Origin: Phaeacidiphilus oryzae TH49
GTDB lineage: Bacteria > Actinomycetota > Actinomycetes > Streptomycetales > Streptomycetaceae
Assembly (NCBI RefSeq): GCF_000744815.1
Contig: NZ_JQMQ01000005.1
Coordinates: forward strand, 504,055 to 568,054
Length of the DNA stretch: 64,000 nt
Direction of reading: 5' to 3'
Part shown: piece by piece, positions 47,555 through 52,874 of the stretch
How the letters are laid out: every line of letters starts with the position of its first letter
How positions within the stretch are numbered: position 1 is the first letter of the stretch
Position numbers and translations under genes: made by a program
Notes under the pieces: generated by a model
Told to the model about the DNA's origin: nothing
Database searches by the model: none
What the model saw: only the letters and a program-made list of their open reading frames with translations

Positions 47555-47761
47555 CGGGCGGCCCCTTCGTCGCGGTCGTCTCGATTCGGCGAGATCGTTC
47601 AACGGAATTCAGCGAACAGGTCCAGTGGCTGGACCACTGGGCCGTCAGAGTGCCAGAGATCACGGAGGGCCTGTCAAGGGGTAGGCCGGGCCGCCCCCGG
47701 ACTTCACACCTTCACCACCGGCAGGGGAACGGTTCGCCCGCACCCCGCCCGCCGCGCACGG

Positions 47762-47767
47762 TACCGT
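47762..47767 (+). promoter_or_regulatory. -10 box of a leaderless promoter for the trypsin-FHA gene
   Basis: TACCGT is followed by 7 nt and ATG 47775 with no ribosome binding site. It marks the 5' end of the five-gene trypsin/stator/kinase cluster. Confidence 0.55.
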
Positions 47768-47774
47768 GCGGGCC

Positions 47775-48824
47775 ATGAGCGAGGTTGATCGCCGCTGCCA
47801 GGCGCGCATCCTCGGGCCCGACGGCCGGCGGGTGGTCGGCGGAGGACTGCTGTACCGCCCCGACGCGGTGGTGACCTGCGCGCACGTGGTGGGCCCCGAG
47901 CCGGTGCCGGTGCTGGTGGACTTCCCCTTCCTGCCGGAGGTACCGCCGGTCACCGCCGAGGTGTCCTCCTGGCATCCGCTCACCCCGGAGGGGCGCGGCG
48001 ACGTCGCCGTCCTCTCGCTGTCCGCCACCCCGCCCGGCGCGGCACCGCCCCCGCTCGGCGATCCGGACGCCGGCGCGGGTTCCGGCGCCGGCGCCGGCTA
48101 CCGGGTGTACGGCTTTCCGGCCGGATACCCGGACGGCCTCTGGGCCCGCGGCACCGTCAGCGGGCGGACCGCCGGCGGCCTCCTCCAACTGGACGGGCGG
48201 ACCGGCCAGGGCGCCCGGCTCGCCCGGGGCTTCAGCGGCTCCCCGGTGTGGGACGAGGAGCAGGAGGCGGTGATCGGCATCGTCGCCGCCGTGGAGCGGG
48301 ATCCGGCCACCGCGCTCGGCTTCGCCCTCCCGGTCGGCACCCCGCCGGGTGCCTGGCCAGCGCCCGCCCGGGCCCCGCTGCCCGCGACCCGGTTGACCGT
48401 GCGGGCGCCGGACGGCACGGTGATCCGCGTCGTGCCGCTCAGCCACCAGCCGGACGGGACGGGCGAGTTGTGGGTCGGCCGGGAGACCCCGGCCGGGGCC
48501 CGGCCGCCGATCGCCGTGCCGGACCGGGAGCGGGTGGTGAGCCGCTTCCACTGCCTGCTGGTCTGCGTACGCGGCCGCTGGCATGTCGAGCCGGCCCCGG
48601 ACACCGTCGGCACCTTCCTCCGCCGCTCCGGGCAGCGCGGCGGGCCGGACCGGATCGACGGGCGAACGCAGCTGTGGCACGGGGACGCGGTGTGGCTGCG
48701 CGCCGACCGCTCGCCGGCCGGCACCGGGCGGCACCGGTACTGGTCCCTGGAGTTCGCCGACGACCAATCGACCTGGCGGCCGGCGCCCCGGGACGCCGGT
48801 TCGGGAGCGGAGAGCCGGAGTTGA
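47775..48824 (+). CDS. Trypsin-like serine protease with C-terminal FHA domain
   Basis: 349 residues, cytosolic (no signal peptide). Chymotrypsin-fold protease at 1-200 with an intact triad: H37 in VVTCAHVVG, D76 in GRGDVAVLSL and S154 in GFSGSPVWD. After a linker, residues about 215-335 form an FHA-like phosphothreonine-binding domain (GELWVGRETPAG, VVSRFHCLLVCVRGRWHVEP, then LWHGDAVWLR). The FHA domain would dock onto protein phosphorylated by the kinase encoded three genes downstream, giving phospho-dependent proteolysis. It is the first gene of a five-gene co-directional set that also includes a Trypco1 protein, a family named for co-occurrence with trypsin-like proteases. Function is inferred from domains and context. 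Confidence 0.88.
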   Translation: MSEVDRRCQARILGPDGRRVVGGGLLYRPDAVVTCAHVVGPEPVPVLVDFPFLPEVPPVTAEVSSWHPLTPEGRGDVAVLSLSATPPGAAPPPLGDPDAGAGSGAGAGYRVYGFPAGYPDGLWARGTVSGRTAGGLLQLDGRTGQGARLARGFSGSPVWDEEQEAVIGIVAAVERDPATALGFALPVGTPPGAWPAPARAPLPATRLTVRAPDGTVIRVVPLSHQPDGTGELWVGRETPAGARPPIAVPDRERVVSRFHCLLVCVRGRWHVEPAPDTVGTFLRRSGQRGGPDRIDGRTQLWHGDAVWLRADRSPAGTGRHRYWSLEFADDQSTWRPAPRDAGSGAESRS

Positions 48825-48869
48825 GGCCCCGTCCGATCCGCCGCCCGTGCAACCGCGGAACTCGGCAGG

Positions 48870-48895
48870 CCCGTCCTCCCCCGTGAGAGGACGGG
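48870..48895. promoter_or_regulatory. Hairpin between protease and channel genes
   Basis: CCCGTCCTC (48870-48878) pairs with GAGGACGGG (48887-48895), a 9-bp stem with an 8-nt loop, in the 166-bp gap after the trypsin-FHA gene. It may be a partial terminator or processing site that sets the ratio of protease to downstream proteins. Confidence 0.5.
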
Positions 48896-48930
48896 GCCGA
48901 TCCGGTTCACCGCCGGCCCGTATGACCCGT

Positions 48931-48950
48931 CCGGTCGCAGACCCGACCGG
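48931..48950. promoter_or_regulatory. Inverted repeat upstream of the channel gene
   Basis: CCGGTCG (48931-48937) and CGACCGG (48944-48950) are perfect 7-bp arms round CAGACC, 40 bp before ATG 48991. It could be an operator for an internal promoter or a second RNA hairpin. Confidence 0.45.
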
Positions 48951-48990
48951 TGACAACCGCAGACTCGGAAGAGACGGGGGACGTCTACTC

Positions 48991-50121
48991 ATGAGCAGCC
49001 GCGCCGAACCGCGCTACCGGTCCCAACTCCTCGCCACCGGCCTGGCCGCCGCGGCCGCGGCCGGCCTGCTGGTCGCCACGGGCGCCGTCGACCCGCTCCC
49101 GGCCATCGGCCGGCTCGTGGAGCAGAGCACCGCCTCCGCGGTGCTGGCCGCGGTCATCCTCGGCGACGCCCTGTGGGTGCTGCTGCTGATCGCCCTGCGG
49201 CTGCGCGGCACCGCCCGGCAGCGGACCCCGGCCCCGCTCTTCAGAAGCGGCGACGGCCTGGACCTGGCGGCGGCCTGCTCGGCCCTGACGGCCGCCCGCG
49301 CCGAGACCCCGTACGCCCCCGTCCGGGCGCTGGTCTGGGCGATGCCCGCGCTCGGCTTCATCGGCACGGCCAGCGAGATGTCCCGGGCGATCGGCGGGCT
49401 CGGGCAGGCGATCGGCGGCACCGGTGGCTACGACGCCCTCACCCGGGTGCTGGTCGGGCGGGTGATCCCGCCGCTCGCCGGGGCCTTCGGGGTCACCCTG
49501 TTCGCCCTCGGCTGCAGCGTGGTCTGCCATGTGCTGCTGCAGTTCGCCCACACCCACGAGCAGCGGGTGCTGCTGCGCCGGGACGAGGCCGTGCTCGCGG
49601 ACCTCCGCAGGTCCGCCGGGCGGACCGATCCGGCCCGTGAACTCCGCTCCGCCGCACAGGAGTTGCGTACCGCCGCGCATGAGCAGAGCCGGGCCGCGCG
49701 GATCTCCCCGTCCGCTCTCACCGGCACCTCGGAGGCGCTGTCCTCGGTGGACGCCGGGGCCAGGATCGCCGCCAGCTCGCTCGGCGAGCTCAAGCGGCAG
49801 CTGGACGCCGTCAACCGCCGCACCGGACAGGGCCGCGACGGGCTGCGGTCCGGCCCGACCGGGCCGAACCCCGGCGGCGCGACCGGCTTCGGGGCTGAGG
49901 ACCGGAGCGGGCAGGAGGTCCGGACCCTGCTGCTGACCATCAGCGGGCAGCTGGCGCAGCTGGAGAAGGCGCTCGACCGCTCGTACCTGATCCGCGAGGA
50001 GAAGGCCCGCTCGCGCTGGCTCCCCTGGCGGCGGCAGCCGCTGCGGGTGGAGCCGCTGCCGGGCACCCCGGCCGCCCGCCGCCCGGCGTCGGGCCGCCCC
50101 TACCAGCGGGCGGGGCGCTGA
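48991..50121 (+). CDS. MotA/TolQ/ExbB-like proton channel subunit
   Basis: 376 residues. Hydrophobic helices at about 14-32, 48-70, 112-140 and 160-186. The third and fourth match the MotA/TolQ/ExbB core: WAMPALGFIGTASEMSRAIG corresponds to the conserved LGLLGTVxGM element, and VIPPLAGAFGVTLFALGCSV to the second channel helix. The cytosolic C-terminal region (190-376) contains Ala/Arg/Leu-rich helices likely to coil (QLDAVNRRTGQGRD, LLTISGQLAQLEKALD) and a basic Pro-rich end. With the overlapping next gene (TGATG) it probably forms a proton- or Na+-driven stator in the inner membrane. Such stators power flagella, Tol/Ton and Zorya defence. Confidence 0.87.
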   Translation: MSSRAEPRYRSQLLATGLAAAAAAGLLVATGAVDPLPAIGRLVEQSTASAVLAAVILGDALWVLLLIALRLRGTARQRTPAPLFRSGDGLDLAAACSALTAARAETPYAPVRALVWAMPALGFIGTASEMSRAIGGLGQAIGGTGGYDALTRVLVGRVIPPLAGAFGVTLFALGCSVVCHVLLQFAHTHEQRVLLRRDEAVLADLRRSAGRTDPARELRSAAQELRTAAHEQSRAARISPSALTGTSEALSSVDAGARIAASSLGELKRQLDAVNRRTGQGRDGLRSGPTGPNPGGATGFGAEDRSGQEVRTLLLTISGQLAQLEKALDRSYLIREEKARSRWLPWRRQPLRVEPLPGTPAARRPASGRPYQRAGR

Positions 50122-50738
50122 TGCAGAGCTTCGGACGGTCGTCACCCTGGAGCGGGGCGCGCGCAGAGGGCGAGAGCGTCCCGCTGGAGCTCCGGTTCAT
50201 CGACCTGCTGATGATCGTCATCGCGGCACTGCTGCTGGTCGCCGTGCTGCTCAGCGTGGTCAGCGCGCATCTGCCGGCGCACAGCGGCAGCGGGGCGGTC
50301 GCCCGGCCCCCGCTGCGGGTGGCCACGGCTCAGCTGCCGGACGCCACCGCCGGACGGTCGTACACCCTGACCCTCGCGGCCACCGGCGGGGACGGCACCG
50401 ACCGCTGGACCGCCGCCGGGCCACTGCCGGCCGGGCTGCGGCTGGACGGCTCGGGGGTGCTCTCCGGAACGCCCTCGGCGGCCGGCGGCACCTCGTTCCG
50501 GGTCACCGTCGCCGACGGCACCGGCGCCTCCTCGACCCGGACGCTCGCCCTGCGGGTGGCCGCCGCCCCGGCGGCGGCTACCGGGCCGCGCGCGGCGCCG
50601 GCCCACCACGGCACCGGGATCAGCTGGTGGGTGGCACTGCTACTGTCCCTGCTGGCACTGCGCGGTCTGTATGGGGTGTACCGATGGATCAAGTGGATGC
50701 GGCTGCCGCCGGGTACGTACACGGTGACCAAGCGCTAG
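50121..50738 (+). CDS. ExbD/MotB-like partner with Ig-like domain
   Basis: 205 residues. The N-terminal helix LELRFIDLLMIVIAALLLVA carries an Asp (D28) at its start, as in ExbD/TolR/MotB, where the equivalent Asp binds the driving proton. Residues 60-150 form an extracytoplasmic putative Ig domain (LPDATAGRSYTLTLAATGGD, PLPAGLRLDGSGVLSGTPSA, the He_PIG pattern). A second membrane helix at about 168-188 (WWVALLLSLLALRGLYGVYR) and a short basic tail follow. The second helix and Ig domain are not found in classical ExbD or MotB. ATG 50121 shares its A with the stop of the channel gene, so the subunits are coupled in translation. The stator role is an inference. Confidence 0.75.
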   Translation: MQSFGRSSPWSGARAEGESVPLELRFIDLLMIVIAALLLVAVLLSVVSAHLPAHSGSGAVARPPLRVATAQLPDATAGRSYTLTLAATGGDGTDRWTAAGPLPAGLRLDGSGVLSGTPSAAGGTSFRVTVADGTGASSTRTLALRVAAAPAAATGPRAAPAHHGTGISWWVALLLSLLALRGLYGVYRWIKWMRLPPGTYTVTKR

Positions 50739-50781
50739 CGGTCGGACGCCGGGGGCGGCGGGGGCCGGAAGGGGGACGCGG

Positions 50782-52518
50782 ATGGGCTTCGCCACGGGGC
50801 AGCGGCTGTCCACCGGGCACCGGGTCGAGGAGGTGCGCCTGGGCGGCCTCTCCGAGGTGGCCGTGGTGCGCGACCAGAACGACGACTGGCAGGCGGTGAA
50901 ACGGGTCCGCGACGACATGGACGCGCGGACCGGGGGCCGGGCCGGCGCGGTCTTCCTCGCCGAGTGCCGGACCGCCGCCGCCCGGCTGCGCGAGGTCCCG
51001 TTCACCGCCCGGCCGCTGCTCGTCCTGGAGCAGTTGGACGGGCTGGGCCCGGTGATGTTCATGGAGTACGTGGCCGGCCCCTCGCTGGCCGGCCTGCTGC
51101 GGGACGGGCCGCTGGCGCTCTCCGAGGCGACCCGGCTGTGCGGGGAGGCCGCCCGCGCCCTCGCCGGGGCGCACGCCCGCGGGATCCGGCACCGCGACCT
51201 CAAGCCCAGCAACCTGCTGGTCGACTCGGACGGCGGCGCCCGGCTGATCGACTGGGGGCTGAGCGAGCTCCACGAGCTCTCCGAGCTCACCGTGCGGGTC
51301 GACTACCTCTCCCCGCAGCGCGCCGCGGACCCGGCGCTGGACGATCCGCGGGACGACGTCCACATGCTCGGCATGCTGCTCCACCAGTGCCTGACCGGGC
51401 GGATCCCGGACGGCCTGCCGGGCGCGGGCCTCGGCGGCGGCTCCGGTGGTGGCCCCGGCGGTGAGGGCGACCCGTTCCTGGTGCGGCTGCGGCTGGACCG
51501 CCCGGAGGTCACCGACACGGCGGCGGAACTCCTCACCGCGATGCTCTCGCCGGACCCCGAACCGCGCCCCACCGCCCAGGAGGTGGCCGACCGGCTGCTC
51601 GCTCCCGAGCACACCGCGGAGGCCCGGCTCCGCGACACCTACCGCCCGTACTGCCCGGGATGCGGGCGGGTCGGCGCCGAGCAGCCGGCCGATCCGCACT
51701 GCCCGCTCTGCGGAAAGGGGCTGATCCGCCGGCGCGACCGGCCCGCCCGGGAGGGCACCGTGCGGATCGCCGCCGGCCCCTTCACCCGCGGGCTCAGCCC
51801 GGCGCAGGCCCGGGAGGCACTGGTCAACGCCCAGTACCCGCCGGACGAGGCGAACGTCCGGGCGCTCTCCCCCAAGGGCCGGTACCAGGCATACTCGCTC
51901 GCCTTCGACATGGACGAGACACCGGTGACCTACGCCGCGTACGCGAGGTTCGCGGAGGCGGTGAACTACCCGCTGCCGGAGGACTTCGCGCGGCTCGCCG
52001 AGCAACGGCCGGACCATCCGGTGACCGGGGTGACCTGGCGGGACGCGCTGTGCTACGCCCTGTGGGCGGGCAAGCGGCTGCCGACCGCGGCCGAGTGGGA
52101 GCGCGCCGCCAGGGGGCCGGACGACGCCCGGATGTACCCGTGGGGCTCCGACTGGGACCCCGGCCGCTGCACCCACTACCCCTCCCCCGGCACCACCCCG
52201 GTCCGCGCCCACCCCGGGGGCCGGTCGCCGGAGGGGGTGTGGGACATGGCCGGCAACGTCCACGAGTGGCTGGCCGCGGGCAACCGGCCGGACACCCGCG
52301 GCCTGCGCGGCGGGAGTTGGAGCGCACGGGTCGAGCTCGAGGGGGTGGTCACCATGCAGAGCGAGGGTCCGCTCTCGCTGGCCGACGGGTACATCGGCTT
52401 CCGCTGCGCGGCCGACGCCCGCTACGACCTCGTGCCGCTGGCCGACGAGTCGGCGAGCGCGGAGACCGCGTCCGCTGCGGAGACCGATGAGAGGGGAGCC
52501 CGGCGATGGCCGATCTGA
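50782..52518 (+). CDS. Ser/Thr protein kinase-zinc ribbon-FGE-like fusion
   Basis: 578 residues. Kinase domain at 1-275 with K40 (AVK), catalytic D139 in RHRDLKPSNLL and D157 in LIDWGLS (DWG for DFG), so it should be active. A zinc ribbon follows at 291-311 (CPGC and CPLCGKG). Residues 325-550 form a formylglycine-generating-enzyme/sulfatase-modifying domain: DETPVTYAAYARFAEAVNYP, VTGVTWRDALCYALWAGKRL, GVWDMAGNVHEWLA, LRGGSWSA and GFRCA. The Cys pair used by true FGE is not in RGGSWSARVELEG, so this domain probably binds protein or ligand and does not oxidise Cys. It is 43 bp after the stator genes. It may phosphorylate stator or protease partners; the protease FHA domain would read the mark. 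Confidence 0.9.
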   Translation: MGFATGQRLSTGHRVEEVRLGGLSEVAVVRDQNDDWQAVKRVRDDMDARTGGRAGAVFLAECRTAAARLREVPFTARPLLVLEQLDGLGPVMFMEYVAGPSLAGLLRDGPLALSEATRLCGEAARALAGAHARGIRHRDLKPSNLLVDSDGGARLIDWGLSELHELSELTVRVDYLSPQRAADPALDDPRDDVHMLGMLLHQCLTGRIPDGLPGAGLGGGSGGGPGGEGDPFLVRLRLDRPEVTDTAAELLTAMLSPDPEPRPTAQEVADRLLAPEHTAEARLRDTYRPYCPGCGRVGAEQPADPHCPLCGKGLIRRRDRPAREGTVRIAAGPFTRGLSPAQAREALVNAQYPPDEANVRALSPKGRYQAYSLAFDMDETPVTYAAYARFAEAVNYPLPEDFARLAEQRPDHPVTGVTWRDALCYALWAGKRLPTAAEWERAARGPDDARMYPWGSDWDPGRCTHYPSPGTTPVRAHPGGRSPEGVWDMAGNVHEWLAAGNRPDTRGLRGGSWSARVELEGVVTMQSEGPLSLADGYIGFRCAADARYDLVPLADESASAETASAAETDERGARRWPI

Positions 52519-52874
52519 TGCGCTTCGCACTGGCGGACGGCGGGACCGTCCTGGTCGAGGCACGGGAGGACGAGGCCGGCATGGTCCCGGCCGGCCGGGC
52601 CGAGCAGGTGGTGTCCGCCGGGGCCGCCTCCTTCGGCAAGGCGCTGTCCAGCGTGCGGGACGCCGCAGGGGAGGCGCTGGCCCGCTTCCGCGAGCTGCCG
52701 CACGCCCCCGACGAGGTCCGCATCGAGTTCGGGGTGCGGCTCAACGCCGATGCGGGGGCGGTGATCGCCCGCACCGGCGTCGAGGGCCATCTCAAGGTGA
52801 GCGTGGTGTGGCGGAGCGGCCGGGCGGACGGCGGGGACGGCGGGGACGGCGGCGGTCCGGAGGACGGGGACTGA
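52506..52874 (+). CDS. Trypco1 (trypsin-co-occurring, CU044_2847-like) protein
   Basis: 122 residues. A small beta-rich domain (LMRFALADGGTVLVEAREDE, FGKALSSVRDAAGEALARFR, PDEVRIEFGVRLNADAGAVI) follows the pattern of the actinobacterial CU044_2847/Trypco1 family, ending in a Gly/Asp-rich tail. The name reflects co-occurrence with trypsin-like proteases in predicted conflict systems, and here a trypsin-FHA gene lies in the same cluster. The start overlaps the kinase gene by 13 bp, with GAGAGGGGAG before ATG 52506. It could be a substrate, inhibitor or adaptor of the protease; this is inference. Confidence 0.85.
   Translation: MADLMRFALADGGTVLVEAREDEAGMVPAGRAEQVVSAGAASFGKALSSVRDAAGEALARFRELPHAPDEVRIEFGVRLNADAGAVIARTGVEGHLKVSVVWRSGRADGGDGGDGGGPEDGD

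Follow-up and report, generated by a model that had tools for sequence, protein, structure and literature searches.

The stretch of DNA analysed here, the window, comprises 64,000 nucleotides of the Phaeacidiphilus oryzae TH49 genome (contig NZ_JQMQ01000005.1 of assembly GCF_000744815.1, positions 504,055-568,054) and contains, between window positions 47775 and 52874, five open reading frames that run in one direction on the forward strand (Table 1). A first-pass annotation, made from the sequence, had described these genes as a co-directional set, and our analysis returned the same reading frames, coordinates and spacings: 166 bp separate genes 1 and 2, genes 2 and 3 overlap by one base (TGATG), genes 3 and 4 are 43 bp apart and genes 4 and 5 overlap by 13 bases. 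The domains of the products (trypsin, FHA, He_PIG, kinase, FGE and Trypco1) were all matched in Pfam, and key residues in them (H37, D76 and S154 of the protease, D139 of the kinase and D28 of the stator partner) were found. On one side of the set lies an MFS transporter gene and on the other a sugar-type ABC transporter, the two being encoded on the minus strand.

Table 1. Coordinates of the five-gene set in the window and of other features discussed in the text
Feature	Source	Position	Strand	Description	Matches and methods
Gene 1	window	47775..48824	+	349 aa; cytosolic trypsin-like protease + FHA	PF13365 4.2e-13; PF00498 5.6e-5
Gene 2	window	48991..50121	+	376 aa; ExbB/TolQ/ZorA-fold stator subunit	AlphaFold2 model, structure comparison
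Gene 3	window	50121..50738	+	205 aa; Asp-helix/Ig stator partner	He_PIG PF05345 7.9e-14
Gene 4	window	50782..52518	+	578 aa; Ser/Thr kinase-zinc ribbon-FGE	PF00069 1.5e-20; PF03781 1.8e-31
Gene 5	window	52506..52874	+	122 aa; Trypco1	PF19493 1.8e-26; NCBIfam CU044_2847 1.7e-19
Palindrome	window	47756-47769		14 bp, perfect; possible operator	
Kinase-like + SF1 helicase fusion	L104	11149-14850		1233 aa	
Stator set	L009	6539-9118		MotA/TolQ/ExbB protein, two ExbD-like small proteins	
Stator set	L010	6539-9139		MotA/TolQ/ExbB protein, two ExbD-like small proteins	

By the annotation's own test, homologues of genes 2 and 3 should lie beside trypsin, kinase or Trypco1 genes in other genomes. A scan of genome contigs with an alignment of five stator sequences alone returned 80 loci, the ten strongest of which (L012-L021) all have the partner gene and a full-length kinase-FGE gene in the same order; this arrangement was not found in the weaker loci among the 80. 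One further locus with the core, L104, came from a hidden Markov model (HMM) search of the sampled genomes. Counting the window, the core, formed by an FHA protein, the stator subunit, its Ig-domain partner and the kinase-FGE protein, is present at 12 loci, which span the Streptomycetaceae, Pseudonocardiaceae, Streptosporangiaceae and Thermomonosporaceae. Stator and partner homologues thus adjoin kinase-FGE and FHA genes in 11 other loci, as the test requires, and in four of these trypsin-FHA and Trypco1 genes lie alongside. Over their full length, the stator and the kinase of the window are roughly 29-52% identical to their counterparts, and because the same gene order is kept in 11 other loci at this level of identity, chance adjacency is excluded on comparative grounds and the set is read as a conserved operon. 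The set is rare: besides the genome of the window, a strong stator match was found in one of 395 sampled members of the class (S. piniterrae, which is L016) and in one of 151 sampled members of the order of Nonomuraea, rough figures that refer to the sampled genomes.

In the product of gene 1, the trypsin-like part (residues 23-169) carries the complete triad and the FHA domain (residues 234-306) has the motif residues GR235 and SRFH256; both the triad and the FHA motif align with four Streptomyces homologues. A C-terminal FHA domain is encoded by the first gene of all 12 loci, its motif is conserved across the FHA proteins of the set, and EmbR is among its best structural matches. What varies is the N-terminal effector: a trypsin-like protease in five loci (the window and the Streptomyces loci L012, L013, L016 and L021, in which the trypsin-FHA gene stands first and the Trypco1 gene last), a SARP-type DNA-binding/BTAD region in three (L014, L015 and L018) and a class III nucleotidyl cyclase in four (L017, L019, L020 and L104). 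The SARP subtype (Trans_reg_C-BTAD-FHA; PF00486 sub-threshold, PF03704 at 1e-17 to 1e-20, and PF00498) has the winged helix-turn-helix (wHTH), BTAD and FHA domains in the order that characterizes EmbR. The N-terminus of the cyclase subtype matched nothing in Pfam or in a sequence search of the PDB, and the assignment came from the fold: an AlphaFold2 model of the L020 cyclase matched Ma1120 (Foldseek, 4e-5) and CyaC (Z 11.7, 160 residues), and two metal-binding Asp residues and an N..R pair are invariant in the subtype. Given this variation of the effector, comparison of the loci makes the trypsin/Trypco1 pair one of three exchangeable output modules. Between effector and FHA domain, L014, L015, L017-L020 and L104 have in common a region without a Pfam family that we read, from its motif VGDPGGRRTTALRLL (eroded in L018 and L020), as a degenerate P-loop-like domain; the SARP proteins have it in addition to the EmbR architecture. 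Gene 1 and the partner gene of L017, and the partner gene of L013, carry frameshifts, which could be assembly errors or decay.

The effectors are accompanied by genes of their own. Trypco1 is encoded in all five trypsin loci and in none of the seven others, an XRE-DUF5753 gene lies upstream in the SARP loci (3/3) only, and a gene for a CRP-type protein that binds cyclic nucleotide monophosphates (cNMPs) lies upstream in the cyclase loci (4/4) only. Trypco1 is therefore tied to the trypsin version and not to the core. The trypsin-Trypco1 pair was rejected as the core of the system, since seven loci (L014, L015, L017-L020 and L104) have a SARP- or cyclase-FHA protein and no Trypco1. L020 recalls Pycsar in having a class III cyclase gene with a downstream gene, placed after that of the kinase, for the Pycsar effector PycTM (PADLOC, 1.8e-30). 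However, tblastn did not find PycTM in L017, L019 or L104, and with one occurrence in four cyclase loci it was rejected as the constant partner of the cyclase, that role falling to the CRP-type receptor; nor did the cyclase-FHA proteins of L019 and L020 match a PycC-type cyclase in PADLOC. The SARP clade includes Pseudonocardiaceae and Acrocarpospora (Streptosporangiaceae), and this spread across families suggests that the subtype has been transferred between them.

In six of the seven non-trypsin loci, gene 1 and the stator gene overlap by four bases (A/GTGA). For this reason we regard the FHA protein as part of the set, probably translationally coupled to the stator in the overlapping loci; the trypsin version may be expressed partly independently of the core. 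An element resembling an ECF sigma factor recognition sequence, GGAAC-N18-CGTC, lies between the trypsin-FHA and stator genes of L012, L016 and L021; it is missing from the window and from L013, and since the three loci are close relatives its conservation is weak evidence. Three related Streptomyces loci also have the same agmatinase-side chromosomal neighbourhood. Just 5' of the ATG of gene 1 in the window is the palindrome GCACGGTACCGTGC, a possible operator, present as one exact copy in the window, where 0.55 matches are expected when two mismatches are allowed.

Gene 2 had no direct family in Pfam, NCBIfam or PADLOC. A tblastn search of plasmids with the stator found annotated MotA/TolQ/ExbB proteins of Anabaena and Microcystis, together with a Nonomuraea protein that carried no annotation; two of these distant homologues match PF01618 (MotA_ExbB) at 5.5e-7 and 1.4e-5. 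An AlphaFold2 model built on 38 homologues reached a pLDDT of about 95 in the transmembrane (TM) core. Compared with the PDB using VIA, the top 23 matches of the model were all ExbB, TolQ or ZorA (Z 10.2-11.7), the best values being 11.7 for ExbB and 11.4 for TolQ, with ZorA at 10.2-10.6 (for ZorA 8vvn, Z 10.5 and a root-mean-square deviation of 3.2 over 160). Unrelated long-helix proteins came next, at Z 9.3, which leaves a narrower gap, and flagellar stators reached Z 7.9 at most. HMM searches of the PDB with stator profiles returned mainly coiled-coil chance matches, plus weak TolQ matches (0.087). Because of the VIA Z-scores, the Pfam matches of the distant homologues and the conserved motifs, we assign the gene 2 product, by the fold of the model, to the MotA/TolQ/ExbB/ZorA superfamily, in agreement with the MotA/TolQ/ExbB-like subunit originally proposed. 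At its N-terminus it has an additional TM helix, and its cytosolic tail is helical and short; two residues invariant across the 38 homologues, T126 and T169, occupy positions that we equate with those of the polar pore residues in ExbB and TolQ.

The partner, which had been described as an Asp-helix protein with an Ig domain, likewise retains that description. Asp28 lies in its N-terminal TM helix, in the motif ELRF[IV]D; this Asp is invariant in 11 of 11 partners, as would be expected of the ion-binding Asp of MotB, ExbD or ZorB. The ectodomain consists of one He_PIG Ig-like domain in the window and of two in other loci, and a C-terminal TM helix is predicted, marginally so in the window.

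Three parts had been recognized in the product of gene 4, a kinase, a zinc ribbon and an FGE domain; all three are present, but the FGE domain is predicted to be inactive. K40, H137-R138-D139 (HRD) and D157-W-G (DWG) are invariant in 11 aligned copies of the kinase, which has the motifs of an active Ser/Thr kinase, and C291, C294, C307 and C310 of the zinc ribbon are equally invariant. The FGE domain, in contrast, lacks the two catalytic cysteines at the motif in all 11 copies, and its closest solved relative is SUMF2 (1y4j, 2.4e-21), the human FGE paralogue without the activity. A catalytic FGE of the SUMF1 type was rejected on these grounds, and because the Cys pair is absent and SUMF2 is the nearest relative, the domain is probably catalytically dead and a binding module. 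It shares with SUMF2-type domains the FGE fold without the Cys pair and differs from them in that it is joined to a zinc ribbon and to a kinase that looks active. For C-lectin folds of the FGE type, a role as sensors in conflict systems has been proposed (PMC10907252; PMC7159879). Relatives of the kinase-FGE protein were not found in viral contigs, and at E≤1e-60 the 147 other class members sampled yielded no kinase-FGE of this type.

Several described systems share features with the set. Zorya also couples a membrane stator pair, from the same superfamily and with the same fold, to cytosolic effectors; here, however, an Ig-like ectodomain and a predicted second TM helix are found in place of a peptidoglycan-binding domain, the tail is short, and a kinase/FHA relay is proposed. 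Genes 2 and 3 gave no PADLOC match to ZorA or ZorB at E≤1, and ZorC, ZorD or ZorE is not encoded by any of genes 1-5; the set was therefore rejected as a Zorya variant, and Zorya was kept as an analogy. In the PknH-EmbR pair of Mycobacterium tuberculosis a Ser/Thr kinase is linked to a wHTH-BTAD-FHA protein, as in the SARP subtype, and the FHA domain of EmbR is required for its recognition and phosphorylation by PknH (PMC4601284). PknH is a receptor kinase, whereas the kinase of the set is soluble, carries an FGE domain and is encoded with a stator pair, and in the window the FHA protein is a protease. The VMAP/MoxR-vWA conflict systems (Kaur et al. 2020, PMC7159879) similarly tie a trypsin-like protease to Trypco1, a pairing also found here, and use a cNMP cyclase as an alternative module; MoxR AAA ATPase, vWA and VMAP are absent from the five genes by Pfam, and stators are not mentioned in that study. 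A search of plasmids with Trypco1 as query led to a trypsin-containing locus of Embleya, but without a stator, and was set aside. In the open-access literature, PADLOC, Pfam and NCBIfam, with subscription papers and preprints outside the search, we found no description of this combination, and neither the stator nor the partner has a PADLOC model; as far as these tools reach, the earlier statement that no such system has been described is borne out.

Other stator sets came to light in the course of these searches. Several Nonomuraea loci (L008, L023, L025, L026, L036 and others) encode a second, divergent stator with a D-helix partner that has several TM helices and no Ig domain; this set is common in the sampled Nonomuraea genomes, and in L008 a YbaB-family gene and a gene for a 367-aa protein precede it. 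In the cyanobacterial plasmid loci L009 and L010 a MotA/TolQ/ExbB protein is followed by two different ExbD-like small proteins; the L009 set adjoins type III-B CRISPR and viperin genes and the L010 set SLATT, nucleotidyltransferase and DNA methylase genes, and these are possibly another stator-based defence set. The kinase-SF1 helicase fusion of L104 (Table 1) resembles the PLuB helicase (1.5e-23, below the cut-off) and the MAD6 kinase.

The core parts, and the FHA output modules with their own companions, are established by sequence or fold. We give about an even chance to the proposal that together they pass phospho-signals from the membrane to the cytosol, the core being fixed and the FHA outputs exchangeable, as a stator-gated Ser/Thr relay in the style of EmbR and PknH. 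In such a relay the stator pair would assemble into a 5:2 ion-conducting complex whose Ig ectodomain would register surface changes caused by phage entry, a damaged envelope or a neighbour, and these, together with a ligand or peptide on the inactive FGE domain, would switch on the kinase. The kinase would then create phosphothreonine docking sites, either on itself or on the stator tail or the partner, through which the FHA domain would recruit and activate the output. The trypsin-like protease would serve as output in the window, and Trypco1 would be an adaptor or inhibitor of this enzyme or else its substrate; the other loci would act through transcription, or through a cyclic nucleotide that the neighbouring CRP-type receptor senses. 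The step from kinase to FHA protein has its precedent in PknH-EmbR, and EmbR also ranks among the closest structural relatives of this FHA domain; this part of the first-pass logic is upheld as far as our tools reach. The step from stator to kinase we infer from synteny alone. That the set represents a new prokaryotic signalling or immune class is a proposal to which we give slightly less than an even chance; a Ser/Thr kinase would here be under the control of an ion-driven stator of ExbB/ZorA fold, and interchangeable outputs would be connected to it through FHA adaptors that read phosphothreonine.

Several observations weigh against the relay or against a role in defence. The Foldseek E-values for the stator are weak (best 0.07), and in the trypsin loci, window included, 113-251 bp lie between gene 1 and the stator gene. 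Effector type follows the clades of the stator and kinase trees, so that few independent swaps stand behind the pairing of effectors and companions: because in both trees the trypsin clade stands apart from all other loci and the SARP loci group together, the 12 loci do not count as 12 independent events. The transporter genes on either side of the set in the window (MFS and sugar-type ABC) do not reveal its purpose. Finally, that the kinase phosphorylates the FHA protein or the stator, and that the stator conducts ions, are proposals.

The purpose is probably a response to threat or stress, with defence about as likely as envelope-stress signalling, and both defence and envelope or developmental roles are compatible with the relay. 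A Zorya-like anti-phage function, with the stator sensing the perturbation of the envelope at phage injection and kinase plus FHA-protease (or cyclase plus CRP/PycTM) leading to defence or suicide, is a serious possibility, though we hold it at somewhat under an even chance. ZorA is among the close structural matches of the stator; predicted conflict systems repeatedly include trypsin with Trypco, and cNMP cyclases (PMC7159879); in L020 the kinase gene is followed by that of PycTM, the kinase-SF1 helicase fusion adjoins the cyclase-type locus L104, and distant cyanobacterial stators adjoin type III CRISPR, viperin and SLATT genes. The sparse distribution (one of 395 sampled class members besides the genome of the window) fits as well. 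However, Zorya models gave no match, metabolic or housekeeping genes flank the set in the window and in four Streptomyces loci, and the SARP and CRP outputs, carried by seven of the 12 loci, look like ordinary regulation; the defence or cell death proposed by the first-pass annotation is thus no more than plausible. Those same seven loci, with transcription-linked outputs (SARP with XRE; cyclase with CRP), speak for envelope-stress or developmental signalling with no role in defence, in which the Ig ectodomain would monitor the cell wall and the relay would alter proteolysis or transcription. The closest precedent, EmbR, governs cell-wall genes (PMC4601284), and the agmatinase-side neighbourhood and ECF-like element of three Streptomyces loci point the same way; but the element is missing from the window and L013, the distribution is patchy, PycTM and Trypco1 are linked to the set, and the spread of the SARP clade suggests transfer. 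We consider signalling of this kind tenable, at roughly a one-in-three level of belief.

The direction of the relay could also be reversed, the kinase-FGE protein acting as the sensor and the kinase or protease opening the stator pair, which as a gated ion leak would be the effector and depolarise the cell. The partner's predicted C-terminal TM helix would hinder free rotation of the MotAB kind and suits a gated channel, and the cytosolic kinase has an FGE domain of ligand-binding type of its own; yet swapped protease, regulator and cyclase outputs would make little sense if the common stator were the effector, and we regard this arrangement as unlikely. Accidental neighbours with separate roles, which the 166-bp gap between genes 1 and 2 of the window might suggest, are hard to reconcile with an order kept in 12 loci of four families, with four-base overlaps in most non-trypsin loci and with the absence of such a kinase-FGE from the 147 other sampled class members, and we hold this explanation to be very improbable.

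Stators of 5:2 composition are the parts behind flagellar rotation, the energisation of TonB and Tol, and Zorya. To our knowledge, no known system couples such a stator to a protein kinase. If the stator-gated relay is true, it would be a second route, besides Zorya, by which a membrane motor or channel reports an event at the surface, and the three subtypes would make it directly testable, by exchange of the FHA outputs on a single core. It would also suggest a use for three poorly understood modules, namely Trypco1, inactive FGE domains on kinases and the Ig-domain stator partners of monoderm bacteria.

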